This document shows, one piece after another, positions 4,889-21,904 of a stretch of 42,046 nucleotides of DNA (the first letter of the stretch is position 1; the number at the start of each line of letters is the position of its first letter). A model generated the notes under the pieces. It was given only the letters and a program-made list of their open reading frames with translations. It searched no databases and was not told where the DNA came from. Source of the DNA: Gracilibacteraceae bacterium (GTDB lineage: Bacteria; Bacillota; Desulfitobacteriia; Desulfitobacteriales; Syntrophobotulaceae); contig JAISAH010000058.1 of the NCBI GenBank assembly GCA_031266805.1, positions 1 to 42,046 on the forward strand, read 5' to 3'. Position numbers and translations under genes: made by a program.

Positions 4889-5794
4889 ATGGACAGGACA
4901 AATTGGCGGAAAATTACATTTTTTTGCTTTGATACGGTTAATACAATTACCGTTTGGTCCGGCTCGGAAGCGGCGCTCGCTCAGGCGCGGGAGATGTGCT
5001 TTTATTATCAAAGCATTTTCAGCCGATTTGCGCCGGGAAGTGATATCTGGCGTCTTAACCATAGTCGGGGTGAAGCCATGCGCGTCGCTCCGGAAACAGT
5101 GGAAATTATTTCCATGTCCGTCGCTTATTCCGCGCTGACAGCCGGAGCGTTTGATATTACCATGGGCGCCCTTTGTGAGATGTGGGGATTTGGCCGCAGC
5201 CCCGCCGTTCCCCGCAGTGAACTCCTTATAGAAGCTTTAGGTAAAACCGGTTCAGGCGGTATCCGCGTCGAGGGGAACACTGTTCGCTGCGCGGCCGGCG
5301 CGATCCTTGACCTGGGCGGCATAGCCAAAGGCTACGCCGCGGACAAAATTGCCGACATGCTGACCGCTGCCGGCGCGGTTTGCGGTATTATCAACTGCGG
5401 CGGCGACGTTCTGACCTTCGGCGCTAAACCCGACGGTTCGCCGTGGCGCGTGGGACTGCAAGATCCCGGCCAGCCCCGGGGCAGATACAGCCGGATCGCG
5501 GTGACGCGCGGGCGAAAAGCCGTCGCCACCAGCGGCGTCTACGAGCGCCGTTTCACAGACCGGAGCGGACAAAGCTTCCACCACATACTCGATCCGCGCA
5601 CCGGCCGGCCGGCGGCAAAAGGTTTAGTGGCGGCTTCTGTGATCCACCCGTGCGGAGCTTTGGCCGAGGCGCTGGCGACGGCCTGTATATGCCTGGGCGC
5701 CGCTGAAGCGCAAAAATTGATCGCCGGGCAGGACGCGGCGGCTTACCTGATCAGCGCAGACGGTTCGTGCCTGAAAACGGGAAATATGCTGTGA
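4889..5794 (+). CDS. apbE: FAD:protein FMN transferase (ApbE), cytoplasmic form
   Basis: A 301-residue ApbE-family enzyme, which cuts FAD and attaches FMN to a Thr or Ser of target flavoproteins through a phosphoester bond. Family blocks are seen in order: FSRFAPGSDIWRLN, TAGAFDITMGAL, ILDLGGIAKGYAADKIADML, GIINCGGDV, KAVATSGVYERRF and HHILDPRTGRPA. The acidic and Thr residues of these blocks form the Mg/FAD site. It has no signal peptide or lipobox, unlike the exported ApbE of many bacteria, so it should act in the cytoplasm. The frame is open back to 4769, but the ATG at 4889 is preceded by AGAGG and fits the family length. The obvious client is the reductase at 6760, which carries two ApbE recognition motifs; cytoplasmic ApbE-reductase pairs are known, for example in Klebsiella. 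Confidence 0.9.
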   Translation: MDRTNWRKITFFCFDTVNTITVWSGSEAALAQAREMCFYYQSIFSRFAPGSDIWRLNHSRGEAMRVAPETVEIISMSVAYSALTAGAFDITMGALCEMWGFGRSPAVPRSELLIEALGKTGSGGIRVEGNTVRCAAGAILDLGGIAKGYAADKIADMLTAAGAVCGIINCGGDVLTFGAKPDGSPWRVGLQDPGQPRGRYSRIAVTRGRKAVATSGVYERRFTDRSGQSFHHILDPRTGRPAAKGLVAASVIHPCGALAEALATACICLGAAEAQKLIAGQDAAAYLISADGSCLKTGNML

Positions 5795-5857
5795 GAAACT
5801 GCAAAAATCCGTCATGAAGCAGGAAAAGAGCCGCGGGATTTTCGGCCCGCTCATACT

Positions 5858-5886
5858 TATAATGCCGCCTGAGTCTGTTTTATAAT
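5858..5886 (+). promoter_or_regulatory. Two -10-like boxes ahead of the large operon
   Basis: Two perfect TATAAT sequences, 5858-5863 and 5881-5886, lie in the 136-bp gap between apbE and the SDR gene. It is the longest gap near the start of the 16-gene plus-strand run and so a likely promoter site. Neither has a good -35 box at 17 bp, which suggests an activator-dependent promoter (inference). Confidence 0.4.
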
Positions 5887-5930
5887 AATATTGCGACAAT
5901 AAAATCTTTCTTGTAAGGGGGCGACGTACA

Positions 5931-6758
5931 ATGAATCCGGAGTATTTCAGCTATTTCAAAGACAAGGTCGGCGCTGTGACCGGAGCGTCTTCCGGCATCG
6001 GTCTGGGTTACGCCAAATACATGCTGGCTGCCGGAGCTAAGGCCGTGTTCCTCTGCGCCAGAGGCAAAGATCGCTTGGAAAAAGAAGGGGGCTATTTGGC
6101 CGAGCGGTATCCCGGTAAAGTGTTCTGGGAAACAATTGATGTTACCGATAAGAAGCAAGTGGAGAAATTCGTCGACGGCGCCTGGAGTAAATACGAACAG
6201 CTGGATCTGCTGTTTAATAACGCCGGGATAAGCCATTTATGCTCCGTGTGGGAGGTTGACGATAAACTGTGGGAAGATCTTTTCAACACAAACTTCTGGA
6301 GCGTGAAATACGGGGTGTTTGCCGCCATTAAGCACATGCTCCAGCAAAAAACCGGCGGCCATATCGTTAACACCGCTTCGATCTCCGGTCTCGTCCCTTA
6401 CCCGTATCAAGCCGCTTATTGCCCCTCCAAGTTCGCGGCGGTAGGATTCTCCCGCTCCATGCGCTATGAGTTCTATGAAGACAATATTAAAATTTCCTGC
6501 GTCTGTCCCCCGCTGGTGGATACGACAATGGTGCGGGAAACAGGGATGCCTTTGCCGGATGATGTTTTATCGGTGGAAGACGCTGTTGATTACATCATGA
6601 AGGGCATCGCCGAGAACCATGATCTGATCTGTTTTGACTATATGGAGCGGTTGAAAAATCTGCTCGACCATGTTATGGAGACGGACGGCGCTTTGTTGGA
6701 TAACGCTTTGGCGCGCAGGAAGCATATGGATGCGGTCGGCTCGCCTTGGAACCGCTAA
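5931..6758 (+). CDS. Classical short-chain dehydrogenase/reductase
   Basis: A 275-residue classical SDR that oxidises or reduces an alcohol/ketone with NAD(P). The cofactor motif TGASSGIG is at residues 17-24, NNAG at 96-99, the catalytic Ser in NTASISG near 150-152, and YCPSK puts the catalytic Tyr and Lys at 163 and 167. ARGKDRLE after strand 2 has basic residues, which leans toward NADP (inference). A C-terminal extension of about 50 residues is unassigned. The ATG follows AAGGGGG by about 9 bases. It is the first gene of the long plus-strand run; the reductase ATG starts one base after its stop. In a CoA-linked pathway it could act as a hydroxyacyl dehydrogenase, but the substrate is unknown. 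Confidence 0.88.
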   Translation: MNPEYFSYFKDKVGAVTGASSGIGLGYAKYMLAAGAKAVFLCARGKDRLEKEGGYLAERYPGKVFWETIDVTDKKQVEKFVDGAWSKYEQLDLLFNNAGISHLCSVWEVDDKLWEDLFNTNFWSVKYGVFAAIKHMLQQKTGGHIVNTASISGLVPYPYQAAYCPSKFAAVGFSRSMRYEFYEDNIKISCVCPPLVDTTMVRETGMPLPDDVLSVEDAVDYIMKGIAENHDLICFDYMERLKNLLDHVMETDGALLDNALARRKHMDAVGSPWNR

Positions 6759-6759
6759 A

Positions 6760-8799
6760 ATGAAACAAGACCGGTTTTGTCCGGGAGTTTATACCGGGCA
6801 GGCACAGGGTTTCGGAGGAATCGTGACTGCCGTGACCGGCGTCAGCCGCGACCGGATTTTGTCTGTCGATATTGACGCTCCGGAGGAAACCCCGCAAATG
6901 GCCTTCCTGGCGTGCGCGCAGCTGACACAGGAGATCGTCAGGCAGGGCCGCGCGGATGTGGACGCGGTTTCCGGCGCTACCGTAACATCCGAGGCGATCA
7001 AAGCGGCAGTCGCGGAGACGCTGCGCCAAGCCGGGGGAGAAGATGGCGCGGACGCCGCGACGGACATGCGGCCAGGGTGTTATGCCGCGGCCGCCAAAGG
7101 GTATAAGTCGGAAATAAAACTGGAAACAGAAGTGAACACGCGGGAGATCCTGACTGTCCGTATCAAAGCAGCCGCGGAGACGCCCGGTCTGGGGCAGGAT
7201 GTTCCGGAAAAAATGGCTGCCCGTATCGTGGAGACTCAATCTTTAGCCGTTGACGGCATATCCGGCGCTACGGTCACTTGCTCCGCCGTCAGGCAGGCCG
7301 TGCAGAAAACCGTCGCCATGGCGGGCGGTTCCCCCGGCGCTTTTTTGCGGCCGCCCGTTAAACCCGAGACGCTACTAACGGAAAAAACAGAGCAGACGGA
7401 CGTTGTGGTGCTCGGCGCGGGCATTGCCGGATTCTGCGCCGCGATCGAAGCTCTGCAGAACGGCGCGGAAGTAATTTTGCTGGAAAAATTGGGGCTTATT
7501 GGTGGCACCGCTATTGTCGCTCGCGGCGCCATGATGGGAACCATGAGCCGTTGGAACAGCGATCGGGGAGACGAGGCGGAAGAACTCGCCAACTGGTGGT
7601 ACGAGCGGCAGGAAAAGCATGAGAATGTGAAGTATGAGCAGCTGCTCTATGTAGCGCGAAATTCCGGCGCCTTGATCAATTGGATCGCGGATTGCGGCGG
7701 CGTGGATTTTAGCCTGGGGTACGGCGGCGACTCCCCAAAAATGTGGAGTCACCGCCCGGGGGATACTCCGGAAAAGCCGGCCTTCGCGGAACATATCTCC
7801 GGCTCAGCGGAACTGTTTGCCGGATTGAAGGCTTGTTTTCTCAGGCTTGGCGGCAAACTCCGCTTGGACACGCGGGCTGTCCGGTTGCTGCGGGACGGCG
7901 GCGGCGTTACCGGTATTGCCGCTGAAAGCCGTGAGAGCGAATACCGTATTCAGGCGCGGGGCGGTGTAGTCGTCGCGGCCGGCGGATACGAGGCGAACCC
8001 AGAGCTTACCGCCCGTCTGGCCCCCAAAAGCGCGCATTATCTGCTCAACGGCTATACGGCCGGCGATACCGGCGACGGTATTCTGATGGGTGAGGAAATT
8101 GGCGCCAAATTGGTCGGGCCGGGTTATCTGATGGGGAATTGGAACTGTATCGAGGGAATCGGCGAGTACGGCCTTGATCCCATGACACTGAAACACGAGA
8201 TCAAGTGCCTGGAAGTCAACGGGCGCATGGAGCGCTTCTATAATGAGAATACTTCGGCCGAGCGAGAGAAATGGGAGTTCGCCAAGGATGGGACCGGTGA
8301 GTTTTTTGTCATTTTTGATTCGAGTCTTGAGGCGCCGCTGTTGGAGAAGTTTGAGCGAGCGGCGGCCGGCGGCGCTCTGTTCAGGAGCGAGACCATCGAC
8401 GGACTGGCTGAGGCCGTTGGGAAAGATCCGGCGGCGTTGCGAAAAACAGTGGCCCGCTGGGATGAAATGGCAATATATGGCAAAGACGCGGATTTTGGCA
8501 ACGCTTTGATCGCCGCCATGGAACCGGGACCTTATTACATCGGCAGGATCTATGAAAAAAGCTGCGGATCAGTCGGCGGTATGGCGATTAATCTGGCGGC
8601 GGAAGTTTTAGATACGCGCGATAATCCCATTCCCGGATTATATGCCGCCGGCGAAAGCGCTAACGGCGAATTCTACTACCGCAGTTACATCTGTGGCGGC
8701 AGTTCCTTCAGTATGGGCGGAGTTTTCGGCCGAACAGCGGGGAGAAACGCCGCGCGGAGAGCGAGGAACCGGGACGGCGGACATTATGATGGGGGTTGA
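6760..8799 (+). CDS. Double FMN-binding domain plus FAD-dependent reductase (fumarate reductase-like flavoprotein)
   Basis: A 679-residue soluble flavoprotein with three parts. Residues about 6-90 and 104-188 are two FMN-binding domains, each ending in an ApbE recognition motif: DAVSGATVT (acceptor Thr 76) and DGISGATVT (acceptor Thr 173). From about 213 comes an FAD_binding_2 domain with GAGIAG (219-224) and a C-terminal GLYAAGES near residue 628. The architecture is that of cytoplasmic fumarate, urocanate or acrylate reductases, in which covalent FMN feeds electrons to FAD and then to an activated C=C bond. The usual fumarate-site signatures (HTMGG; HGxNRLGGN) are replaced by CGSVGG and EFYYRSYICGGSS, so the substrate is probably not fumarate. 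It has no signal peptide or haem motif. The frame extends upstream into the SDR gene; the ATG one base after that stop is chosen, implying coupling. Confidence 0.88.
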   Translation: MKQDRFCPGVYTGQAQGFGGIVTAVTGVSRDRILSVDIDAPEETPQMAFLACAQLTQEIVRQGRADVDAVSGATVTSEAIKAAVAETLRQAGGEDGADAATDMRPGCYAAAAKGYKSEIKLETEVNTREILTVRIKAAAETPGLGQDVPEKMAARIVETQSLAVDGISGATVTCSAVRQAVQKTVAMAGGSPGAFLRPPVKPETLLTEKTEQTDVVVLGAGIAGFCAAIEALQNGAEVILLEKLGLIGGTAIVARGAMMGTMSRWNSDRGDEAEELANWWYERQEKHENVKYEQLLYVARNSGALINWIADCGGVDFSLGYGGDSPKMWSHRPGDTPEKPAFAEHISGSAELFAGLKACFLRLGGKLRLDTRAVRLLRDGGGVTGIAAESRESEYRIQARGGVVVAAGGYEANPELTARLAPKSAHYLLNGYTAGDTGDGILMGEEIGAKLVGPGYLMGNWNCIEGIGEYGLDPMTLKHEIKCLEVNGRMERFYNENTSAEREKWEFAKDGTGEFFVIFDSSLEAPLLEKFERAAAGGALFRSETIDGLAEAVGKDPAALRKTVARWDEMAIYGKDADFGNALIAAMEPGPYYIGRIYEKSCGSVGGMAINLAAEVLDTRDNPIPGLYAAGESANGEFYYRSYICGGSSFSMGGVFGRTAGRNAARRARNRDGGHYDGG

Positions 8800-8805
8800 T
8801 ATGTC

Positions 8806-9762
8806 ATGGGAAAGAGAGAACGGGTATATATCTGCGAATGTTGGGGCCGGGACGGACTGCAGAACATCGCTAAGATCATTCCCACCGCCGAAAAAACAGA
8901 ACTGATCAACAAAATGGCTCACGCGGGGTACGCCCGGATCGAGACTACGTCGTTCTCCAATCCGAAACAGCTGCCGCAATTTGCGGACGCGGAAGATGTA
9001 CTGCGGCGGATTGAGCGGGTCCCCGGCGTTTGCTACAAAGCGACCACCATCAACGAGCGGGCTTTAGATCGGGCGATCGCGGCTAAAAACGCGGGGTATG
9101 GCCCCACCGAGGTTACGTTTATGATTTCTGTCAGCGAACGGCACAATATATTTAACACCAAATTAAACCATGCCGAACATTGGGCGCAATTTGAGCGCAT
9201 GGCGGAAAAAGCGCATGCGAACGATCTGAAAATCATCGCCACGCTGGGGACCGTTTACGGCTGCCCGCTCGACGGCGACGTCCCGCCCGAACAGGTTTGG
9301 CGTATGACAGAAAAGTATTTGACGCTGGCGCCTGAGTATATCGTGCTGGGAGATACAACCGGCGCCGGCAATCCGTTGACCGTGAAAGAGATGTTTGGCG
9401 AGTTAATCGCCCGACGCCCGCACATTAAGTATGTCGCGCATTTCCACGATACGCGCGGGACCGGCGTCGCTAACGTTATGGCGGCTTTTGCGAGCGGCGT
9501 CCGTTATTTTGACTGTTCGCTGGGGGGGATCGGCGGCCAGCCCGCCGGATACGGACATGTCTACCATCAGGGATTCTCCGGCAATGTTTGCAGCGAAGAC
9601 GTCATATGCATGTTTGACGAGATGGGCGTCGATACCGGTATCAGCCAGGAAGACGCCGTCGCCCTGGGCCTGCGCGCGGAAGAAATCATCGGCGCGCCGC
9701 AGCGCAGCAATGTTCTGCGCTGCGGGCCGGTCAGCCATGCGCCCAAACCTGAATATGAATAA
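8806..9762 (+). CDS. HMG-CoA lyase-like DRE-TIM metallolyase with altered active site
   Basis: A 318-residue TIM-barrel protein of the HMG-CoA lyase branch. It keeps RDGLQN (Asp16), ETTSFSNPKQLPQFADA (residues 46-62), HFHD (His212, His214) and GNVCSED (Asn260). By comparison with human HMG-CoA lyase these supply all four metal ligands. The loop that normally reads GGCPYA, with the catalytic Cys, is instead GGIGGQPAGYGHVYHQG: the Cys position is Gln245 and the loop is about six residues longer. The fold and metal site are therefore clear, but cleavage of HMG-CoA itself is doubtful; a related acyl-CoA lyase, aldolase or condensing enzyme is likely. It starts 6 bp after the reductase stop, behind a GGGGG stretch. 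The CoA-transferase and thiolase genes downstream would handle acetoacetate-type products. Confidence 0.8.
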   Translation: MGKRERVYICECWGRDGLQNIAKIIPTAEKTELINKMAHAGYARIETTSFSNPKQLPQFADAEDVLRRIERVPGVCYKATTINERALDRAIAAKNAGYGPTEVTFMISVSERHNIFNTKLNHAEHWAQFERMAEKAHANDLKIIATLGTVYGCPLDGDVPPEQVWRMTEKYLTLAPEYIVLGDTTGAGNPLTVKEMFGELIARRPHIKYVAHFHDTRGTGVANVMAAFASGVRYFDCSLGGIGGQPAGYGHVYHQGFSGNVCSEDVICMFDEMGVDTGISQEDAVALGLRAEEIIGAPQRSNVLRCGPVSHAPKPEYE

Positions 9763-9790
9763 GGAATTATTGATACGAGGAGAGTGAAGT

Positions 9791-10726
9791 ATGCTCGGTT
9801 ATGTGATCAAACGGATCCTGCTTATTCCCGTTATTCTGCTGATTGTGACGTTTTTGATTTATATCCTGGTCAACCTCTCCCCGGTTGATCCGACGTACAA
9901 CCTGCTGCCGATGAATTATACCCAGGAAATGGCGGATGAGCTTCATCGGGAAATGGGGTTAGACAAACCGATAGTCGTCCAGTATTTTAATTGGATCCGG
10001 AACGCTTTGCACGGCGATTTTGGTTTTTCCTGGTCTTCGCGTATTGACGTAATGGAACAGATGCGGCCGCGTATTCCGATCACGCTGAAGCTATCCTTGA
10101 TCACGACGTTTGTCATCATGATAATCGGGATGCCGCTGGGGATTTTATGCGCCGTCAAACAGTACAGCATATGGGATAATATCTTCAACGTTTCTTCCAA
10201 AATGCTTGGCGCCGTTCCTCAATTCTGGCTGGCGCTCCTTTTTATGCTGCTTTTTTGCCTGAAGCTGGGGTGGCTCCCCAGTTACGGCCTGAAAGGCTGG
10301 GAAAGTTATATCATGCCTATTGTGACCTTAGCCTTGCCGAGTATTGCTACCTATGTCAGGAATACCCGCAGTTCGATGTTGGACTGTATCCGTAAGGATT
10401 ATATCCGCACGGCGCGCAGCAAAGGGGCCAAAGAGAGTGAGGTTATTTTTCGCGAAGCGTTGCGCAACGCTGTTTTGCCGTTGATAACGGCCTCGTTTAA
10501 CCAGTTCGTCATGCTGATCAGCGGCGCCGTCGTCATTGAAAGGGTCTTTGCCATACCGGGTCTGGGCTCTATGGTCATCGAGGCGGTAGGCCAAAGCGAT
10601 CTGCCGATTGTCCTGGCCTGTACAACCGTTATGTGCGTGATCTGCGTGGTCATGACTCTGATTCAGGATATCGTCTATGGTCTGGTTGATCCGAGAATTA
10701 AAGCGACTTTTGTAGGCAGAAGCTGA
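9791..10726 (+). CDS. Dpp/Opp-type ABC transporter permease 1 (DppB family)
   Basis: A 311-residue membrane protein of the peptide/nickel-type ABC permeases. It begins with MLGYVIKRILLIPVILLIVT, a membrane helix typical of DppB/OppB, followed by the periplasmic-type segment with MADELHREMGLDKPI, and has about six helices in all. The EAA-like coupling loop is RSKGAKESEVIFREALRNA near residues 212-230. It pairs with the next permease to form the channel. The importer family carries di- and oligopeptides but also opines, nickel and small organic compounds, so a peptide substrate should not be assumed. GAGGAGAG lies about 7 bases before the ATG. It follows the lyase gene by 28 bp within the run of catabolic genes, suggesting that it imports the pathway substrate. 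Confidence 0.9.
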   Translation: MLGYVIKRILLIPVILLIVTFLIYILVNLSPVDPTYNLLPMNYTQEMADELHREMGLDKPIVVQYFNWIRNALHGDFGFSWSSRIDVMEQMRPRIPITLKLSLITTFVIMIIGMPLGILCAVKQYSIWDNIFNVSSKMLGAVPQFWLALLFMLLFCLKLGWLPSYGLKGWESYIMPIVTLALPSIATYVRNTRSSMLDCIRKDYIRTARSKGAKESEVIFREALRNAVLPLITASFNQFVMLISGAVVIERVFAIPGLGSMVIEAVGQSDLPIVLACTTVMCVICVVMTLIQDIVYGLVDPRIKATFVGRS

Positions 10727-10751
10727 ACCGCGGCGCGGGAAGGAGTTTGAA

Positions 10752-11654
10752 GTGAAAGGTACGGAAAACGATAACGCTCTACTGGCTAAACGGGTCAAAG
10801 CGCGGAGCGCTTGGGCGGAGACCTGGGACAGGCTCAAACAGCAGCCGGTGGCTATGATCGCGCTTGGCGGGATCGTGCTGATTTTCCTGATAGCCATCTT
10901 CGGGGATCTGATCGCGAATTACAAGGACTTGGCTATTGCCCAGAACGCCGCGGAAAAACTGCAGCCGCCCAGCCTGCGTCATCTTTTTGGCACGGACAGA
11001 TTTGGCCGCGATATGTTTGCCCGCATAGTACACGGTACGCGTATCGCTATCGCGATGGGCTTCGTTTCGACTTTAGCCGCCATTTTCGTTTCGGTGATCA
11101 TGTCCTGCCTGGCGGCTATTTACGGTAATCGCACAGATAATTTCGTGATGAGAGTGGTTGACGTCATCAGTTCCATCCCCAACCTCGTCATGGCGATCGC
11201 GATCTGCTCCGGTCTGGGGCAAGGGCTGTGGCAGCTTGTCGTAGCGCTGGCCTTCGGTTCCATACCCTATGCCACGAAGATGTGCCGCAGTGTCGCGCTC
11301 AGCGTAGTCCAGAACGAGTTTATTGAAGCGACCAGAGCATTAGGCGGCGGGACTTGGTATACGATCAGGCGGCATTTGCTGCCAAACATCGCCAGCATCA
11401 CCATCGTCACGTTTACGGGCACTGCGGCCTTCAATATTTTGATGGGCGCTACGCTGAGTTTCATCGGTCTCGGGGTTAAAGCGCCCCGTCCGGAATGGGG
11501 CCTGATGCTTTCGGAAAGCATGAGCTACATGACGCGTTATCCCTATCTGGCAATCGTGCCGGGACTGGCGATCGTGCTGACGGCCTTGTGCATCAATACT
11601 TTCGGCGATTACCTTCGGGACGCGCTTGACCCGCAGCTTAAAGGGAAGGTATAA
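10752..11654 (+). CDS. Dpp/Opp-type ABC transporter permease 2 (DppC family)
   Basis: A 300-residue permease with a GTG start behind AAGGAG. Early residues WDRLKQQPVAMIALGGIVLI and the following LFGTDRFGRDMFARIVHGTR are hallmarks of the DppC/OppC N-terminus. The coupling loop reads ATRALGGGTWYTIRRHLLPN near residues 190-210. About six membrane helices are expected. It is the second half of the translocation pore together with the preceding permease, 25 bp upstream, and receives energy from the two ATPases that follow. Confidence 0.9.
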   Translation: MKGTENDNALLAKRVKARSAWAETWDRLKQQPVAMIALGGIVLIFLIAIFGDLIANYKDLAIAQNAAEKLQPPSLRHLFGTDRFGRDMFARIVHGTRIAIAMGFVSTLAAIFVSVIMSCLAAIYGNRTDNFVMRVVDVISSIPNLVMAIAICSGLGQGLWQLVVALAFGSIPYATKMCRSVALSVVQNEFIEATRALGGGTWYTIRRHLLPNIASITIVTFTGTAAFNILMGATLSFIGLGVKAPRPEWGLMLSESMSYMTRYPYLAIVPGLAIVLTALCINTFGDYLRDALDPQLKGKV

Positions 11655-11665
11655 GGTGGTCGAAG

Positions 11666-12631
11666 ATGGCTGAGACGCTTCTGGAAATCCGTGATCTGAA
11701 TGTGCGCTATACAACCGACGGTATTATCGCCCGCGCCGTCAATCATGTCGATCTGAATATTGAGGCCGGTGAAATATTTGGCTTGGTAGGAGAGACCGGG
11801 GCCGGTAAAACGACCATCGCTCTCGCGAGCATGGGTCTGCTGCCTCGGTATACGTCGCAAGTCGAGGGCTCGATCAAGTTTAAAGGCCGGGAGATCGCCG
11901 GCGCAAACGAAAATGTCCTGCGTGACATTCGGGGCAAAAATATTTCCATGATTTTCCAGGATCCGATGACCAGTCTCAATCCGGTGTTCCCTGTGGGCAC
12001 TCAGATTGGAGATGTTATCAAATGGCATAACAAGTCTCTTTCCAAAGCGGAAGTTGAAACCCAGGTCGACGAAATACTCAAAATGGTCGGCATCGCCCCG
12101 GAGCGCAAGCGGGAATATCCGCATCAGTTCTCAGGCGGAATGAAACAGCGCGTAATGATCGCCATCGCGATAGTATGCAAGCCGGACCTACTGATTGCCG
12201 ACGAGCCTACTACGGCTTTGGACGTGACGATTCAGGCCCAGGTTATGATGACTATGCGCAATCTGCAAAAGCAGCTGGGGTCTTCCGTTCTCCTGATTAC
12301 GCACGATCTGGGCTTAGTGGCGATGTTCTGCGACAAGGTCAGCGTTTTATACGGCGGCGAGATCGTGGAACACGGCGCTCTGGAAGATATTTTCGACAAT
12401 TCCAGGTCTCACCATCCGTATACAGTCGGTCTTTTTGGCTCTTTGCCCGATTTACATTCCCGCGCTTCCCGCTTAAACCCGATTGCCGGACTTATGCCCC
12501 ATCCCGCGGAACTGCCCGCAGGGTGCAAATTCCATCCTCGCTGCCCCGAACGCATGGAAAAATGCCAAACAGGAGAAGTAGGCGCGTCTTCTTCCGGGAC
12601 CCACTCTATTAAATGCCATTTATTTGCTTAA
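11666..12631 (+). CDS. Dpp/Opp-type ABC transporter ATP-binding protein 1 (DppD family)
   Basis: A 321-residue ABC ATPase. Walker A is GETGAGKTT near residues 42-50, the Q-loop lies in [12 protein letters not shown], the signature is FSGGMKQR, Walker B is [12 protein letters not shown] and the H-loop His is in LLITHDLGL. The C-terminal oligopeptide-transport domain ends with a Cys cluster ([16 protein letters not shown]) that is typical of this branch and thought to bind an Fe-S cluster in some members. It starts 11 bp after the permease stop. Confidence 0.92.
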
Positions 12632-12642
12632 AAGAGGTGAGC

Positions 12643-13599
12643 ATGGACGAAAAAATACTGGTTGAGTGCAAAAAACTGCAAAAATTCTTTAACACGCCGC
12701 GAGGTTTGCTTCATGCCGTTGACGACGTTTCTTTCAAAATACCCAGAGAAAAAACCTTGGGCGTCGTCGGCGAATCGGGCTGCGGCAAATCAACTTTGGG
12801 GCGGACCATCCTTAATTTACTGAAAGCCACTTCCGGTGAGGTTCTGTTCGACGGAGTCAATATTGCCGGCAAGTCAGACAAAGAAATGCTCCCATATCGG
12901 GCAAAGATGCAGATGATTTTTCAGGATCCCTATTCGTCAATTGATCCGCGAATGACCATCTCTCAGATCATTGAAGAGCCGTTCGTGATCAATAAAGTGC
13001 TGAAACAAAGAAAAGAGCGGCAGGACAGAGTGCGCGAGCTGATGGAGATCGTCGGTTTGGACGCGTTTTATGTTAACGCCTATCCGCATGAACTGGATGG
13101 CGGACGCCGGCAGAGGATCGGCGTAGCGCGGGCGCTGGCTTTGAATCCGGAATTCATCGTCTGCGATGAGCCTGTATCCGCCCTGGACGTGTCGATCCAG
13201 GCCCAGATCCTTAATCTGCTCATGGATCTGAAAGACGAGCGCAAACTGACCTATATGTTCATTACGCATGATCTTTCGGTAGTAAAACACATTTCCAACA
13301 ATATTTTGGTGCTTTATCTGGGGAAAATGGTTGAAATGGCGCCTTCCGACTTAATATTTGACAATCCTGTTCACCCGTACACGAAAGCGCTGTTCTCTGC
13401 GATCCCGATTCCCGATATCGCCTACCGACATAAAGAACTGCAAGTAATCAAAGGCGAAGTGACCTCGCCGATCAACCCGCCTGACGGCTGCCGGTTCGCG
13501 CCGCGCTGTCCTTTCGTCAAAGACGGATGCGGACAGGCGGCGCCGGAGTTCAGAGAAACGGAGCCGGGGCACTTTGTAGCCTGTCACTTGTATAACTGA
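12643..13599 (+). CDS. Dpp/Opp-type ABC transporter ATP-binding protein 2 (DppF family)
   Basis: A 318-residue ABC ATPase, partner of the preceding one. Walker A is GESGCGKST, the Q-loop is in MIFQDPYSSIDP, Walker B is FIVCDEPVSALD and the switch His is in FITHDLSV. The signature reads LDGGRRQR instead of the usual LSGGQ; the Ser-to-Asp change is noted but need not be disabling, as I recall similar variants in clostridial DppF proteins. The C-terminus carries the Cys motif GCRFAPRCPFVKDGC. The start is the ATG at 12643, 2 bases after AGAGGTGA and 11 bp after the previous stop; an earlier ATG at 12613 would overlap the previous gene without a binding site. Confidence 0.92.
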   Translation: MDEKILVECKKLQKFFNTPRGLLHAVDDVSFKIPREKTLGVVGESGCGKSTLGRTILNLLKATSGEVLFDGVNIAGKSDKEMLPYRAKMQMIFQDPYSSIDPRMTISQIIEEPFVINKVLKQRKERQDRVRELMEIVGLDAFYVNAYPHELDGGRRQRIGVARALALNPEFIVCDEPVSALDVSIQAQILNLLMDLKDERKLTYMFITHDLSVVKHISNNILVLYLGKMVEMAPSDLIFDNPVHPYTKALFSAIPIPDIAYRHKELQVIKGEVTSPINPPDGCRFAPRCPFVKDGCGQAAPEFRETEPGHFVACHLYN

Positions 13600-13632
13600 T
13601 GATCGAAATTAAAGAAGACCGGAGGAAAAATA

Positions 13633-14367
13633 ATGTACCGGAGTATCCTGTACGAGAAAAAAGACCGTATCGCGCGGCTTACCCTGAACAGACCCGAGGT
13701 CAGAAACGCCGTCAATGAGACCATGCGGCAAGAAATAATCCTGGCCTTAGCGGACGCAAAGGCGGATGGAGATATTGCCGTCGTCGTCGTCAGCGCCAGC
13801 GGAAAATCGTTTTGCTCCGGGCGAGATCGGAACGAGTTCATGAACCACGACGGTTGGAGCATGGCGGAAGTCTATAGCGACTATGCCCGCGGCAAGGAAT
13901 TTTTGGATGTTTTACAATATTATCCCAAACCGTTGATCGCCGCCGTCCAGGGTTTCGCTCTGGGATACGGCGTCAGTATCGTCACATACTGTGATTTGGC
14001 GGTCGCCGGGCAATCCGCTGTTTTTGGCTATCCGGAGATTAACGAAAATATAATTCCGGCGACGGCGGCGGTCAAAGCGGCGGAAACCGTCGGGCGCCGG
14101 ATGCTGACCGAAATGATTTTTCTGGGGAACAGGTATACCGCGGATCAGGCGCTGGCCATGGGCTTGATCAATTGCGTCACTAAGGACGAAGACATTTTGC
14201 CGAAAGCTGCGGAATGGGCGGAAACAATGGCTAAGAACGATCCGACGACGAATCAACTTTGCAAGCAGTTTATCCAGAGCGTGGGGAAAACGGGCTATGA
14301 CGCCGGAGCGCTCAATTCGGTGTCAGTCCTCAGCGTAAGTTACGCTAACAATAAAAAGTGGAGATGA
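13633..14367 (+). CDS. Enoyl-CoA hydratase/isomerase family protein 1
   Basis: A 244-residue crotonase-fold protein. The CoA-binding and oxyanion-hole loop is KSFCSGRDRNEF (residues 58-69), and the second oxyanion segment is FALGYGVS. In the position of the first catalytic Glu of rat enoyl-CoA hydratase (Glu144) it has Ser115; the second (Glu164) is kept as Glu135 in FGYPE. Loss of one Glu is common in crotonase relatives that act as isomerases, hydrolases or C-C lyases, so simple hydration is not assured. It is shorter than the usual 258 residues and ends abruptly after KKWR. It begins 33 bp after the transporter ATPase behind GGAGGA, and its 3' end nearly touches the next hydratase-family gene. 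Confidence 0.85.
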   Translation: MYRSILYEKKDRIARLTLNRPEVRNAVNETMRQEIILALADAKADGDIAVVVVSASGKSFCSGRDRNEFMNHDGWSMAEVYSDYARGKEFLDVLQYYPKPLIAAVQGFALGYGVSIVTYCDLAVAGQSAVFGYPEINENIIPATAAVKAAETVGRRMLTEMIFLGNRYTADQALAMGLINCVTKDEDILPKAAEWAETMAKNDPTTNQLCKQFIQSVGKTGYDAGALNSVSVLSVSYANNKKWR

Positions 14368-14372
14368 AGCAT

Positions 14373-15140
14373 ATGGAGCAAATACTCCTCAAAGAAGAAG
14401 CGGGCGGAGTCCTGAAAATCACTTTGAACAGGCCGGAGCAATATAACGCTCTGAGCAACGACTTGATGGAACAGCTGCATGACGCTCTGGTCGCTTTCGG
14501 CCAGGACGACTCGCGGCGCGCGGCGGTAATTACCGGCGCCGGCGCGAATTTTTGCAGCGGCGCGGACATCAAGCAATTCGGCGACAGCGAGACGCAAACC
14601 CCGGAAATGATCGCCTGGCGGGCGCAAACGGCCATGGAAACGCACGGCCTGATCGCCCAACTGTCTAAGCCCGTAATCAGCAGCGTACGCGGTTATGCCC
14701 TCGCCGGCGGCTGCGGTATCGCTTTAGCGGCCGACATGGTGATCGCTTCGGAAAACGCGCTTTTTGGCTATCCCGAGTGCAAGAGAGGTTTTGTGCCGGC
14801 ATTGGTATTGGTAAATCTGACCAAGCTGATCGGGCGGCACAGAGCGTTGGAATTGCTGCTGACCGGCAGGAAAATCGGCGCTGCGGAGGCGCTGGCCTGG
14901 GGTTTGATCAATGAAGTCGTCCCCGACGGCCAATTAGAGGAACGAACGATGGATCTCGCGCGGCGACTCGCGGCCTTAGCGCCTTCGGCGGCGGCCAGCA
15001 CCAAGGCATTGCTGTACCGAGTCGAGGAAATGCCCTTGCTGGAAGGATTGCGGATTGCGAAAGAAGTCAACGAAGCTATGCGCCAAACCGGCGATTTTGC
15101 TGCCGGCGCCCAAGGTTTCCTGCAAGGGGCCAAAGTCTGA
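14373..15140 (+). CDS. Enoyl-CoA hydratase/isomerase family protein 2
   Basis: A 255-residue crotonase-fold protein with LNRPEQYNALS at the N-terminus, the oxyanion loop NFCSGADIKQF (59-69), and ALAGGCGIALAAD around residue 115. The first catalytic Glu of hydratases is replaced by Gly115; the second is present as Glu135 in FGYPE. The pattern matches enzymes annotated as enoyl-CoA isomerases or carnitinyl-CoA dehydratase-like proteins as well as hydratases, so the reaction is unresolved. The frame is open back to a GTG at 14358, but the ATG at 14373 has GGAG nine bases upstream. It lies 5 bp after the previous paralogue and 26 bp before a CoA-transferase. Confidence 0.85.
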   Translation: MEQILLKEEAGGVLKITLNRPEQYNALSNDLMEQLHDALVAFGQDDSRRAAVITGAGANFCSGADIKQFGDSETQTPEMIAWRAQTAMETHGLIAQLSKPVISSVRGYALAGGCGIALAADMVIASENALFGYPECKRGFVPALVLVNLTKLIGRHRALELLLTGRKIGAAEALAWGLINEVVPDGQLEERTMDLARRLAALAPSAAASTKALLYRVEEMPLLEGLRIAKEVNEAMRQTGDFAAGAQGFLQGAKV

Positions 15141-15166
15141 TTTTAGTTTAGAAAGAGGGAGTTTTT

Positions 15167-16303
15167 TTGAAACCACTGCGGAACATCCGAGTACTGGATT
15201 TCTCTCAGTACATCGCGGGACCGTTTTGCACCGCTTTGTTAGGGACATTCGGCGCCGAGGTCGTTAAAATTGAAAACCCTAAAGGCGACGACGCCCGTTC
15301 TTGGCCGCCCATAAAAAACGGATTCAGCGGATACTTCGCCAACTATAACGGCGGTAAAAAAAGCGTGTGCCTGAACTTCAAAGACGCCGCCGACATGGAG
15401 ACTATAAACCAATTGACCGCCAAATGCGACGTCCTGGTGCATAACTTCACCGCCTCCACGCGGGCGCGCCTGCAAATGGAGTACGAACGGATAGCGGCGA
15501 TCAATCCCCGGATCATCTACTGTAACATTTCCGGATGGGGCGAAGATGGGCCGTACAAAGATCGAAAAGGCTTTGACACGGTCTTTCAAGCCGTCGCCGG
15601 AGTGACCGGTCTCACCGGTGAGCAGGGGGGCGAGCCGATCAAAGCCGGCGTGCCGATCGGGGACGTGTCCGGCGGACTCTTCGCGGCGCTTTCCATCATG
15701 ATGGCGCTGGAAAAACGCCGCCAGACCGGTGAGGGTGAAAATATCGACCTCTCAATGGTCGAAGGCCTGTACAATTTCCTGTCGGTCTCCATGGCTTTTT
15801 ATGCTTTTAACGGCAAGGCTCCTGAACGCATGGGCAGCGGACATGTCGGCCGCGTACCCTCGCAAGTGTTCAAATGCGGAGACGGGAAGTATGTCCATAT
15901 ATCTCTGAACGACGGTCAGTGGGGCAAGTTCTGTGAGATCATGGGTATGGACGACTGGAAAGAACATGAGTATTACAAAGTAGGGCTCAACCGGGTGGAA
16001 TCCCGACAAGAAGTAGTGACCCGCATCTCGGCCGTCCTGTCCCAAATGACGCTGGACAGTCTGAGCGCCAAATGCCTGGCTGCCGGTGTTCCCTGCGGCG
16101 AGGTAAACAGTCTGGAGGATATTGAGCGGGATCCGCAGGCGGTGTTCCGGCACAGTCTGGATTATATTGATTACGACGGCGTCCGGATGCGCTTTGTTAA
16201 TTACCCGGCCAGATTCAAAGATATCGATATCCGGCAGGATCGCCATATACCCTCGATCGGCGAACACACCGCCGCGGTGCTGGCGGAGTGGCTCAATAAA
16301 TAA
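15167..16303 (+). CDS. CaiB/BaiF family CoA-transferase 1
   Basis: A 378-residue class III CoA-transferase, which moves CoA from one acid to another without a free acyl phosphate. Family blocks are VLDFSQYIAGPF, FGAEVVKIENPKGDDAR, GGKKSVCLNFK, NPRIIYCNISGWGEDGPY and, for catalysis, Asp166 in PIGDVSGGLFA, aligning with the aspartate that carries the acyl group in formyl-CoA transferase. It starts at TTG (15167), five bases after AGGGAG; no ATG or GTG is closer in frame. It lies between the second and third hydratase-family genes, consistent with activation of the pathway acid. Confidence 0.9.
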   Translation: MKPLRNIRVLDFSQYIAGPFCTALLGTFGAEVVKIENPKGDDARSWPPIKNGFSGYFANYNGGKKSVCLNFKDAADMETINQLTAKCDVLVHNFTASTRARLQMEYERIAAINPRIIYCNISGWGEDGPYKDRKGFDTVFQAVAGVTGLTGEQGGEPIKAGVPIGDVSGGLFAALSIMMALEKRRQTGEGENIDLSMVEGLYNFLSVSMAFYAFNGKAPERMGSGHVGRVPSQVFKCGDGKYVHISLNDGQWGKFCEIMGMDDWKEHEYYKVGLNRVESRQEVVTRISAVLSQMTLDSLSAKCLAAGVPCGEVNSLEDIERDPQAVFRHSLDYIDYDGVRMRFVNYPARFKDIDIRQDRHIPSIGEHTAAVLAEWLNK

Positions 16304-16326
16304 TTATGATAAACGGAGAGACACGG

Positions 16327-17118
16327 ATGAATGAGTACAAGTTTTTAGATGTTTCCTGTCGGGACGGCGCGGCTTTGATCGGGATGAACCGCGCGGAGGC
16401 GAAAAACGCGCTCAATTACGGACTGCTTACCGAGATCGTGGCCGCCTGCCGCGAGGCGGACGCAAATGAGGAAATCGGTGTCATTATTCTTTATTCCCAA
16501 ATCGCCGGAGTCTATTGCGCCGGCGCTGACACTAAAGAACGCAGGGCGATGACGGATGAAGAAGTCAAAAAAAGAAGGATCTTTGCTCGGGACTGCTACG
16601 ACTCGCTGGAAAAAATTAACAAACCGCTGCTGACGGCTGTCGACGGCAAATGCATAGGCGGCGGTTGTGAGATCATCGGTACCTGCGATATTATTCTCAG
16701 CTCGGAGCGGGCGTCGTTTCGGTACGTCGAAGTAGCCGTCGGTTCTGTCGGAGCGACGCAGCGCGTTACGCGGTTTGTGGGCAGACAGCACGCGAATGAA
16801 CTGCTCTTCACCGGCCGGACGATCGGGGCCGCCGAGGCCTTTGCTATGGGATTGGTGGCGAGGATCCTGCCGGCGGAAACATTTATGGAAGAAGTAATCA
16901 AGGTCGGCGGGCAGATCGCCTCACATCCGCGCGCTACGCTGCTGGCGACGAAAAAGGCGATAAAAATGGCGGCGACCGCGCCGCCCGAATGCGGCGTGAT
17001 GTTTGAGCAAATGGCTATAGATTACAATTTGCTAAAGAATGATTGGCGCGGCAGTCTGGACAATTTCCAGCAGCGGACGGAAAGTGAGAAGACGGGAGTA
17101 TTATCAGATGGCCGGTAA
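16327..17118 (+). CDS. Enoyl-CoA hydratase/isomerase family protein 3
   Basis: A 263-residue crotonase-fold protein. Unlike the two earlier paralogues it has both hydratase glutamates: Glu115 in GGGCEIIGTCD and Glu135 in FRYVEVAVG. The oxyanion loop is GVYCAGADTKERR (61-73). It is therefore the best candidate for a true enoyl-CoA hydratase here. The ATG at 16327 is 8 bases after GGAG; an ATG at 16306 lacks a binding site. Its last 11 bases overlap the start of iorA, so translation is probably coupled. Confidence 0.88.
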   Translation: MNEYKFLDVSCRDGAALIGMNRAEAKNALNYGLLTEIVAACREADANEEIGVIILYSQIAGVYCAGADTKERRAMTDEEVKKRRIFARDCYDSLEKINKPLLTAVDGKCIGGGCEIIGTCDIILSSERASFRYVEVAVGSVGATQRVTRFVGRQHANELLFTGRTIGAAEAFAMGLVARILPAETFMEEVIKVGGQIASHPRATLLATKKAIKMAATAPPECGVMFEQMAIDYNLLKNDWRGSLDNFQQRTESEKTGVLSDGR

Positions 17119-18889
17119 CAACAAGTATTTCATGATGGGCAACGCGGCTCTGGCAAGGGGAGCTTATGAGGCGGGCGTGGTCTTTGCCGCCGCTTATCCC
17201 GGCACTCCGTCAACCCAAATATTTGAGAATGCCGCGAAATATCCTGAAATTTACAGCGAGTGGGCGACAAATGAGGCGGTGGCGGCCGAACTGGCCATAG
17301 GCGCCCAGATGGCCGGAGTACGCGCCTTGTGTTCTATGAAGCACTTTGGTTTCAATGTCGCCGCGGATCCGATTTTTCCCTGCGTATATAACGGCGTTCT
17401 AGCCGGACTCGTATTTGTGGTCGCCGATGATCCGGGGCAGGCGACTTCCAGCACGGAACCCGACGCGCGCCGCTGGGGCCCGCAAATGCGAATTCCGATC
17501 CTTGAACCGGCCGACAGCCAGGAATGTAAGGATTTTACCAAGGCCGCCTATGAGATCAGCGAACGTTTTGACACGCCGATCCTGATCCGCCTGACGGCCC
17601 GCATCAGCCACGGAACAGGCATAGTCACATTTGCTGAACGTCAGGCGGTTCCTATTAAGCCTTATACCAGAAATCTCAGTAAAAATGTCGGCATGAGTTC
17701 TCTCGGCAAGTTTAAACACGCGCGGTTAGAAGCCCGGGTCAAAGATCTGGCCCAATTTTCGGATGAGACGGACCTGAACCGGATCGAATGGGGCGAAAGA
17801 GAAATCGGCGTCATCAGCAACGGTATATCTTACCAATATGTGAAGGAGATTTTTGGGGACGGCGCCTCATACCTGAAAATTGGATTTTCTTATCCTTTGC
17901 CGGAAAAGAAGATCCGGGAATTTGCCGCGGGCGTGCGAAAACTCTATATCGTCGAAGAATTGGATCCTTATATGGAAGAATATGTCAAACAGCTGGGGAT
18001 TCCCTGCGTCGGCAAGGAGATCATCCCGGCCGTCAACGAGTTGAGCATCGATGTGATCAAAGAGGCTTTCGGGGTAACCGGCGAAAAACGGCGGCGCTTA
18101 GATATCAAAGCCCCTGAGCGAACGCCGAATTTTTGCGCCGGCTGCACTCACCGCGGCGTTTATACCGCTATGAAAAAGCACCTTAAAAAAGTGATTGCCT
18201 GCGGCGATATCGGTTGCTACAATCTGGCGGTGCTGCCGCCTTACAGCGTCCATGAAACCATGCAGGATATGGGCGGCAGTATCCCTACCGCCATCAGTTT
18301 TTGGAAAGTATTCCAGCTCGCCGGTCGTCCGGAAAAACCCTTTGCTTTTATAGGCGATTCGACATTTTTTCATAGCGGCATGACCGGGCTGGCAGACGCT
18401 GTGTACCGCAAAGCCAATATTGTCGTATTCATTCTGGATAACAGATCGACGGCAATGACCGGTCATCAGGATCATCCCGGCAGCGGGCGCATGATGGATA
18501 AAACCCCGACGGAACCGATAGAAATAGACGATATCGCCAGAGGTATGGGCATCAAAGAAGATCAGATCAGATATGTCGACCCCTATGATCTTGCGGATTT
18601 AGATAACGCGATCCAAGAGGGAATCGCCGCCGATAAACTGTATTTCATCGTGGCGCGGCGCCCATGCCCGCTCCTGCCCGAAACCCGCAAAGCGCGGGCC
18701 GGTATATCCTGCGTGGTCAGCGCGGATAAGTGTACGAACTGCAAAGCGTGCGTCAGACAAACCGGGTGCCCGGCGCTTTCTATCGCGGAGGGGAAAGCCG
18801 TAATCGAGCGGGAAGACTGCAACGGATGCGGCATATGCGCTCAGATATGCCGTTTTCAGGCAATTGAGACGGTAGGTGGATTAAGATGA
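17108..18889 (+). CDS. iorA: Indolepyruvate:ferredoxin oxidoreductase alpha subunit
   Basis: A 593-residue protein matching IorA across its length. The N-terminal pyrimidine-type domain reads MMGNAALARGAYEAGV and AAAYPGTPSTQI. The TPP domain has GDIGCYNLA, FIGDSTFFHSGMTGLAD and DNRSTAMTGHQDHPGSG. The C-terminus carries two ferredoxin-like Cys clusters, CTNCKACVRQTGCP and CNGCGICAQIC. The enzyme converts aryl-pyruvates (indolepyruvate, phenylpyruvate) and ferredoxin to aryl-acyl-CoA, CO2 and reduced ferredoxin; relatives take other 2-oxoacids. The start is the ATG at 17108, inside the end of the preceding gene, preceded by GGGAG; the longer frame is not supported. It couples the pathway to low-potential electrons. 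Confidence 0.95.
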   Translation: MAGNNKYFMMGNAALARGAYEAGVVFAAAYPGTPSTQIFENAAKYPEIYSEWATNEAVAAELAIGAQMAGVRALCSMKHFGFNVAADPIFPCVYNGVLAGLVFVVADDPGQATSSTEPDARRWGPQMRIPILEPADSQECKDFTKAAYEISERFDTPILIRLTARISHGTGIVTFAERQAVPIKPYTRNLSKNVGMSSLGKFKHARLEARVKDLAQFSDETDLNRIEWGEREIGVISNGISYQYVKEIFGDGASYLKIGFSYPLPEKKIREFAAGVRKLYIVEELDPYMEEYVKQLGIPCVGKEIIPAVNELSIDVIKEAFGVTGEKRRRLDIKAPERTPNFCAGCTHRGVYTAMKKHLKKVIACGDIGCYNLAVLPPYSVHETMQDMGGSIPTAISFWKVFQLAGRPEKPFAFIGDSTFFHSGMTGLADAVYRKANIVVFILDNRSTAMTGHQDHPGSGRMMDKTPTEPIEIDDIARGMGIKEDQIRYVDPYDLADLDNAIQEGIAADKLYFIVARRPCPLLPETRKARAGISCVVSADKCTNCKACVRQTGCPALSIAEGKAVIEREDCNGCGICAQICRFQAIETVGGLR

Positions 18890-19467
18890 AACAGAGCGCG
18901 AAAGGCGTCATTATCTGCGGTATTGGCGGGCAAGGCGTCGTATTGGTATCCAACATTCTGACCGAAGGTCTGATGGAAATGGGTTTCGATGTTAAAAAGA
19001 CGGAAGAGCACGGCATGAGTCAGCGCAACGGCGCGGTCAACGCCCAGATCAAATTCGGGGCCAAGGTGTTCGCCCCCGCCGTCGCCAAAGGTTCCGGCGA
19101 TTTGATCATCGCCTTTGAGAAGGCCGAGAGTCTGCGTTGGTTGGAATATCTGCGGCCGGACGGTTGCCTGATCGTCAACGATGTGGAGATTGAGCCGGTT
19201 AGCGTCCAAGCGGGCAAAGAGAAATATCCGGAGAATCTGTCCGAGATTTTGCGAGCCGAAATAGCGGACACGATAATTATAAACGCCGCGGAAGCAGCCT
19301 TCCGGATGGGAACGATCAGAGCGCAGAGCATGGTGCTGCTGGGAATATCTGTTAAAAAACTAGAGCTGGGATCTTTTGCCTGGACCGCAAAGATCAGAGC
19401 CATGGTGCCGGAAAAGTATCAGGAAGCCAATATCAACGCTTTTCAATACGGGTTGAGTTTGGTATGA
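18886..19467 (+). CDS. iorB: Indolepyruvate:ferredoxin oxidoreductase beta subunit
   Basis: A 193-residue IorB, the gamma-domain partner of IorA. Recognisable parts are GIGGQGVVLVSNIL (residues 9-22), EEHGMSQRNGAVNAQIKFG and the C-terminal PEKYQEANINAFQYG. It overlaps iorA by the four bases ATGA, giving equal expression of the two subunits. It is followed after 28 bp by the amidohydrolase gene. Confidence 0.95.
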   Translation: MKQSAKGVIICGIGGQGVVLVSNILTEGLMEMGFDVKKTEEHGMSQRNGAVNAQIKFGAKVFAPAVAKGSGDLIIAFEKAESLRWLEYLRPDGCLIVNDVEIEPVSVQAGKEKYPENLSEILRAEIADTIIINAAEAAFRMGTIRAQSMVLLGISVKKLELGSFAWTAKIRAMVPEKYQEANINAFQYGLSLV

Positions 19468-19495
19468 AAAAACTCACGTAAAGACGGAGAATCAG

Positions 19496-20638
19496 ATGAA
19501 AGCCGATATTATCATCCGCAACGGCGTAATAGTCGATCCGGCACGCGCGGGTCAAACGACAAAAGATCTGGTGATCGCCGGGAAGCTGATTGCCGCCGAT
19601 TCCGCTGACGGCTGGGAAGCGAAAGAGACGGTCGACGCTTCCGGGTGCTTCGTCACACCCGGATTGACAGACGCGCATGTTCATGTTTTCGATACCGGCA
19701 GCGAACTCGGCGTTAAGGCGGACTGCCTGCCGCCGATGGGGGTGACGTCTGCCGTTGATTTTGGCAGCGCCGGATATGTCAATTTCCGCGGATTTATGCG
19801 CGAATGCGTTGAACGCAGTGACGTCCGCGTTTATAGCTTCGTCAACGTCTCGCCTGTCGGGCCGGTTTCCCTGCAGCGCCCGGAAGACGTCAGTCCGGAT
19901 GGTTTCAGCCGGCGAAAACTGGCGGAGCTGAAAGAAAAATATCCCGGCCGGCTGCTGGGACTGAAGCTGCGGCTGGGCCGGGAAACTGCCGGCGATTCCG
20001 GACTTGAAACGCTGCAAGCCGCTTTAAAACTGAGTGCGGAGCTGCATTGGCCGTTGGCCGTTCATGTCAGCAATTCTCCTGTTCCCGTGCGGAAGATAGC
20101 GGCGCTGCTGAGGGAAGGCGACGTTTTTGCCCATGTCTATCAGGACAGAGGCGGAGACTCCATCCTTGACGGCGCGGGGTCTGTTTACCCGGAAATATTA
20201 GAGGCCAGAAAACGGGGAGTGATCTTCGATGTCGGCCACGGCTGGCTGAATTTCTCGATCGAAACAGCGCAAAGATCCTTAAATCAGGGCTTTGGCCCCG
20301 ATCTGCTCGGAACGGATATGTCGGCTGTTGTGGCCTATCGGCGCGGGGTCTTTGGTTTGCCGCATATTATGTCCAAGTTCATGGCCCTTGGTTTTTCTCT
20401 GGCCGATCTTGTTTCGCTGTGTACGGTAAAACCGGCGGCGCTCTTGACTCTGATGGGTTCGGCCCCCAGCCTGAAGCCGGGGTCGGCCGCCAATATCGCG
20501 GTGTTTCGTTTAGAGACGCGCCCTGTGGTTTTTACGGATTATCACGGCGCGTCCCTCGGCGGGAACGTCTTGCTGACGCCGCAGCTGACGGTCATAGACG
20601 GCAAAATTGTTTGGCGGCAATTCGGATTTGATGTTTGA
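19496..20638 (+). CDS. Metal-dependent amidohydrolase/deacetylase family protein
   Basis: A 380-residue amidohydrolase-superfamily enzyme. Metal and catalytic residues are in the expected order: HxH at 61 and 63 (LTDAHVHVF), a Lys likely carboxylated at 157 (LGLKLRL), His190 (AVHVSN), His213 (FAHVYQ) and Asp274 (LGTDMSA). The pattern matches the branch annotated as amidohydrolase/deacetylase, related to dihydroorotases; characterised members hydrolyse acetylated hydroxy-acids or amides. It may deacylate or deamidate the imported compound before CoA activation (inference). The ATG lies after ACGGAG. Gaps of 28 and 30 bp tie it to the same transcript as iorAB and the second CoA-transferase. Confidence 0.82.
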   Translation: MKADIIIRNGVIVDPARAGQTTKDLVIAGKLIAADSADGWEAKETVDASGCFVTPGLTDAHVHVFDTGSELGVKADCLPPMGVTSAVDFGSAGYVNFRGFMRECVERSDVRVYSFVNVSPVGPVSLQRPEDVSPDGFSRRKLAELKEKYPGRLLGLKLRLGRETAGDSGLETLQAALKLSAELHWPLAVHVSNSPVPVRKIAALLREGDVFAHVYQDRGGDSILDGAGSVYPEILEARKRGVIFDVGHGWLNFSIETAQRSLNQGFGPDLLGTDMSAVVAYRRGVFGLPHIMSKFMALGFSLADLVSLCTVKPAALLTLMGSAPSLKPGSAANIAVFRLETRPVVFTDYHGASLGGNVLLTPQLTVIDGKIVWRQFGFDV

Positions 20639-20668
20639 ACCTTGAATTGTGGAAAAGAGGTGACTTGC

Positions 20669-21880: not shown

Positions 21881-21904
21881 AACGAAAAAAGGAGATATCC
21901 CGCG

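Follow-up and report, generated by a model that had tools for sequence, protein, structure and literature searches.

A candidate cytosolic di-flavinylation pair in a Gracilibacteraceae bacterium: a signal-less ApbE and a reductase with two FMN_bind domains

The DNA analysed here (42,046 nt, hereafter the window) encodes an oxidoreductase in which two FMN_bind domains precede a single FAD_binding_2 domain, and, upstream of it, an ApbE-type FAD:protein FMN transferase (Table 1). We consider it fairly probable that the two proteins form a dedicated cytosolic di-flavinylation pair, the reductase being fed by an electron carrier and acting on a C=C bond beside a ketone or a thioester. The adjacent ApbE would move FMN from FAD onto the reductase at Thr74 and Thr171. 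Once modified, the reductase would carry two phosphoester-linked FMNs on the two domains at its N-terminus, and one FAD bound non-covalently in an active site of the fumarate-reductase/ketosteroid-dehydrogenase type.

Table 1. Positions of the genes, domains and motifs in the window
Feature	Position	Strand	Evidence
ApbE-type FAD:protein FMN transferase, no signal peptide	4889..5794	+	302 codons including stop; PF02424 E=6e-74
SDR, motifs TGASSGIG and YCPSK	5931..6758	+	PF00106 E=3e-49, motifs
FMN_bind-FMN_bind-FAD_binding_2 oxidoreductase, 679 aa, no signal peptide	6760..8799	+	Pfam, motif scan
FMN_bind domain 1, residues 17-88	6808..7023	+	PF04205, 49.5 bits, cut-off 22; AF2 model of residues 1-196
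Flavinylation motif 1, DAVSGAT, residues 68-74, predicted FMN site Thr74	6961..6981	+	motif scan
FMN_bind domain 2, residues 114-185	7099..7314	+	PF04205, 54.9 bits, cut-off 22
Flavinylation motif 2, DGISGAT, residues 165-171, predicted FMN site Thr171	7252..7272	+	motif scan
FAD_binding_2 catalytic domain, residues 214-638	7399..8673	+	PF00890 E=3e-41; Foldseek matches
HMG-CoA lyase-like enzyme	8806..9762	+	PF00682 E=4e-34; NF004283 247.5 bits, cut-off 246
Remainder of co-directional cluster (importer, crotonases, CoA transferases, IorAB, others)	9791..23542	+	family searches and context

Two FMN_bind domains and their predicted flavinylation sites

The initial annotation of this region, made from the letters alone, had described two ApbE target motifs on two FMN-binding domains, with one FAD domain beside them. 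Family searches bear out both points (Table 1), and both motifs are intact. It had also placed an ApbE without signal peptide upstream of the reductase; the ApbE has indeed no hydrophobic N-terminus, but the SDR gene intervenes between the two. The reductase ORF starts 1 nt past the SDR stop and the HMG-CoA lyase-like gene begins 6 nt downstream of the reductase. The gap between ApbE and SDR is 136 nt, with which the ApbE gene could be transcribed separately from the SDR-led cluster. Just upstream of ApbE (1896-3739) lies a gene for a protein with two glyoxalase/VOC domains, which exhibits a 4-nt overlap with the start of an NAD-dependent epimerase. Further along the window, on the minus strand (34394-35659), a LarC-like protein, so identified by eye, exhibits a long His-Glu tract (HEHEHEH...) that is probably metal-binding.

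The pattern D..[ST]GA[ST] has exactly two matches in the six frames of the window, DAVSGAT and DGISGAT, and both fall within the FMN_bind domains. With only two matches in 84,088 codons, a chance origin of the motifs is ruled out. The residue that bears FMN is the final one of the seven-residue motif (PMC12052999). The expected sites are therefore Thr74 and Thr171, rather than Thr76 and Thr173 as annotated initially, where the second threonine of "TVT" had been picked.

FMN_bind domain 2 matches domain 1 of CbFMN4 (8p2b; E=3e-11, phmmer). In a full-length AF2 model (mean pLDDT 82), the FAD domain and FMN_bind domain 2 are well shown; domain 1 is not resolved (block pLDDT about 30-60), probably because of the thin alignment there. 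A second AF2 model, of residues 1-196, was built on tandem FMN_bind proteins and is of moderate confidence (mean pLDDT 74). It exhibits the order strand-strand-strand-helix-helix twice, FMN_bind-like for both domains, and in each copy the last long helix begins at the predicted FMN site (Thr74 and Thr171, respectively). Over one domain, this model superposes on CbFMN4 domain 1 with a target TM of 0.93 and an rmsd of 1.0 A.

Flavinylation of a single domain, most likely domain 2 that adjoins the FAD domain, with domain 1 acting as a spacer or docking element, would agree with domain 2 being what the single-domain relatives share. We hold this to be unlikely: domain 1 exhibits a full motif and a score well over the cut-off, and the multi-domain proteins CbFMN4 and SaFMN3 carry 3-4 covalent flavins (PMC10339131).

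Compartment, partner and relatives

The ApbE sequence matches PF02424 over residues 14-286 (249 bits, cut-off 25.6) and solved ApbE structures with E=3e-35 (phmmer). At one position, its motif AEALAT exhibits a glutamate instead of the aspartate (ADxLST) seen in those sampled copies in which the motif could be recognised; we take this residue to be a metal ligand in ApbE. All compartment calls were made by hydropathy, not by SignalP. This check revealed no signal-peptide-like hydrophobic stretch at the N-terminus of the ApbE, and hydropathy together with the lipobox pattern revealed none in the reductase, alternative upstream starts included. A signal peptide overlooked through an earlier start was also considered and rejected, as the upstream in-frame ATG (6670) lies inside the SDR gene and opens no signal-like stretch.

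The genome encodes one other ApbE, which is lipoprotein-like and exported, and exhibits eight other FMN_bind matches in seven proteins (one has two), each of which starts with either an export signal or a membrane helix. By hydropathy, the ApbE and the reductase of the window are thus the only ApbE copy and the only FMN_bind protein of the genome that lack an export signal. Since the other ApbE and the other FMN_bind proteins bear such N-terminal features, neither of the two has another predicted partner in its compartment. This match of compartment and position is the strongest argument, at the level of sequence, that the predicted cytosolic ApbE and FMN_bind protein belong together. Giant exported proteins (about 1,640-2,370 aa) with one or two FMN_bind motifs occur in the same genome (L078 5070-10004, L079 108-5201, L080 1-5047, L081 108-6146) and in a sister genome (L083), and are apparently a family of surface flavoproteins in the genus.

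Homologues were sampled in about 400 genomes from the phylum and 60 near relatives. The best reductase matches in this sample are 28-38% identical, with 36% for the nearest FAD domain. The search yielded no orthologue, not even from a genome of the same genus with a 98% identical ribonucleotide reductase. A contaminating contig was ruled out as the source of the window: the contig's anaerobic ribonucleotide reductase gene exhibits the 98% identity to this same-genus genome and 88-91% to others. The relatives are mostly of about 590 residues with one FMN_bind domain, in agreement with the initial statement that a single such domain is usual. An N-terminal hydrophobic or twin-arginine export signal is present in 36 of the 37 aligned relatives; the start of the exception (L120) is uncertain, and its near-twin L122 has a signal. 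Three relatives (L123, L119 and L121) exhibit two motifs ahead of the FAD domain, all with export signals. Many well-studied double-domain homologues with the same role would have counted against the initial proposal; those found look exported and are unstudied here. One genome of the same order (G031) contains 30 reductase matches on several contigs, and its protein at L123 10265-12175 has the FMN_bind motif at the C-terminal rather than the N-terminal side.

A maximum-likelihood tree of the FAD domains places the window protein with L050, L059 and L061 (support 88/85), on a long branch. The FMN_bind motif is absent from these three. A common lineage with the exported double-domain proteins was rejected when their FAD domains were forced to group (p-AU 6e-10). 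From this rejection, the layout of two FMN_bind domains with a FAD domain seems, on these sequences and with a long branch, to have arisen at least twice. The neighbours of the nearest relatives L174-L176 gave no useful clue to the substrate. A scan of genome contigs retrieved only two loci, both from Secundilactobacillus and 28-34% identical, in which one motif lies close to the C-terminal end of the reading frame, and plasmid records gave no match over 80% of the query.

Active site, electron supply and gene cluster

By its PF00890 domain and its fold, the reductase belongs to the fumarate reductase-like FAD_binding_2 superfamily. The full-length model scores highest with urocanate reductase (6t86), at Z 44.2 and an rmsd of 3.2 A for 438 residues. 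Flavocytochrome c3 reaches Z 43.6, and the ketosteroid and cyclohexanone dehydrogenases come close to it, with Z about 39-41 over the FAD domain only. Aligned with flavocytochrome c3, the reductase has Ala500 in place of Arg402, Gly603 in place of His504 and Ile644 in place of Arg544, and its conserved Arg492 aligns with Arg394. The complete Arg/His/Arg triad is found in 16 of 38 aligned rows, the window protein not among them. Their UrdA equivalents Arg411, His520 and Arg560 hold the carboxylate of the substrate and supply the proton; fumarate reductases conserve these contacts (PMC7921117).

The top sequence and fold matches, flavocytochrome c3 and urocanate reductase, would also suit a plain enoate reductase of the fumarate or urocanate type, acting on a free unsaturated acid after the loss of its signal peptide. 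This is very improbable, as the three replacements lie at positions conserved in fumarate reductases. With the carboxylate triad replaced, a free enoate is an unlikely substrate, and a C=C bond adjoining a ketone or a thioester appears more likely. Of the acceptors proposed initially, free enoates are accordingly disfavored; an enoyl-CoA may still serve, as may an enone. The YPGSG-type site of the relatives L051 and L052 has its counterpart here in Tyr643 and Gly647, which presumably resemble the ketone-binding tyrosine and glycine of ketosteroid dehydrogenases.

The genes from the SDR through the solute-binding protein (5931-23542) form a run of 16 co-directional genes with gaps of at most 33 nt. 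They encode an oligopeptide-type (Opp/Dpp) ABC importer (4 genes), three crotonases, two CaiB-type CoA transferases, IorAB, an amidohydrolase, a solute-binding protein and the HMG-CoA lyase-like enzyme; three of these labels (the permease DppC, the ATPase DppF and IorB) were assigned by reading sequence and gene context rather than by family search. The cluster looks like one for import and degradation of some compound. It seems to be absent from sister species: the adjacent lyase has no close match in four same-genus genomes, which are 67-88% complete, so that its absence is likely, not certain.

Such a catabolic context, the loss of the reductase triad and the Z scores of about 39-41 to ketosteroid and cyclohexanone dehydrogenases would also suit the reverse direction, in which the enzyme would resemble these dehydrogenases. 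The SDR would make a ketone by oxidising an alcohol, a C=C bond beside it would be introduced by the FAD domain, and the FMNs would export the electrons to a carrier. On the other side, the characterised FMN_bind-linked members are reductases, of fumarate and urocanate (PMC8238504), and all NCBIfam dehydrogenase models score far below their cut-offs on this protein (141 bits against 789 for 3-ketosteroid-delta-1-dehydrogenase). We regard the reverse direction as a possibility, though a doubtful one.

In the reductive direction that we prefer, the electrons must arrive via a separate carrier, since no domain for oxidising NAD(P)H can be recognised in the reductase. Nor does the cluster contain a recognisable flavin reductase or NADH-oxidising flavoprotein, and the two FMN_red matches of the genome are both on other contigs. 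Judging from the presence of IorAB in the same operon, the donor might be, for example, a ferredoxin that IorAB could reduce. Electrons would run from FMN to FMN to FAD, and the FAD would saturate a C=C bond beside a carbonyl other than a free carboxylate, either a ketone or a CoA thioester. The gene context further suggests that the starting compound would be imported by the ABC transporter of the operon and that the product would pass to the neighbouring SDR and acyl-CoA enzymes.

Relation to known flavinylated systems

In Klebsiella pneumoniae, flavinylation of a soluble fumarate reductase requires a signal-less ApbE (PMC12052999). The Klebsiella/Erwiniaceae pairs resemble the present one in combining FMN_bind and FAD_binding_2 in one soluble chain with a neighbouring signal-less ApbE. 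They differ in having one motif instead of two and a large extra N-terminal region (the L165 motif is at residue 441, whereas FMN_bind starts here from residue 17). Their gene neighbourhood is also different, and the fumarate-type carboxylate triad is missing here. The exported proteins L123, L119 and L121 share the two flavinylation motifs preceding the FAD domain, but exhibit hydrophobic export signals (two of them lipobox-like) and FAD domains of a separate clade. In UrdA and the Listeria fumarate reductase, a FMN_bind domain likewise feeds a FAD domain of the same fold; these are exported and carry one FMN, and the carboxylate triad of UrdA is missing in the window protein. CbFMN4 and SaFMN3 also have several FMN-binding domains, with 3-4 covalent FMNs (PMC10339131) against two predicted FMN sites here, but their N-termini were cut off to obtain intracellular protein, and they are described as multi-FMN proteins rather than reductases with a FAD domain. 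Ketosteroid and cyclohexanone dehydrogenases are alike in the fold of the FAD domain, and act on ketones, not on carboxylates.

Multiple FMN_bind domains are frequent in exported proteins, with 2081 such proteins in 1530 genomes, and exported fumarate-reductase-like proteins with a FMN_bind domain are common as well (PMC8238504). The same survey of flavinylated proteins discarded every gene without a signal peptide (PMC8238504), and cytosolic multi-flavinylated proteins are consequently uncharted in it. The double FMN_bind plus FAD layout is not in itself new, as three exported proteins among the sampled relatives have it, and a cytosolic ApbE with a reductase flavinylated at a single site is on record in Klebsiella. 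The union of tandem FMN_bind domains and a cytosolic location in one enzyme is undescribed in the literature accessible to us, which covers the primary papers on cytosolic reductases thinly, and in the sampled genomes of the phylum.

We tentatively suggest that the reductase may represent a cytosolic multi-flavin relay, of an origin independent of the exported double-FMN reductases. The two FMNs would replace the fused N-terminal part of the Klebsiella type, and a ferredoxin-like low-potential carrier would drive a ketone/thioester-type C=C reductase in anaerobic catabolism. If this is true, the enzyme with its tandem FMNs and a cytosolic ApbE to itself would provide a compact soluble system, free of any membrane partner, in which to study the role of the second covalent FMN.
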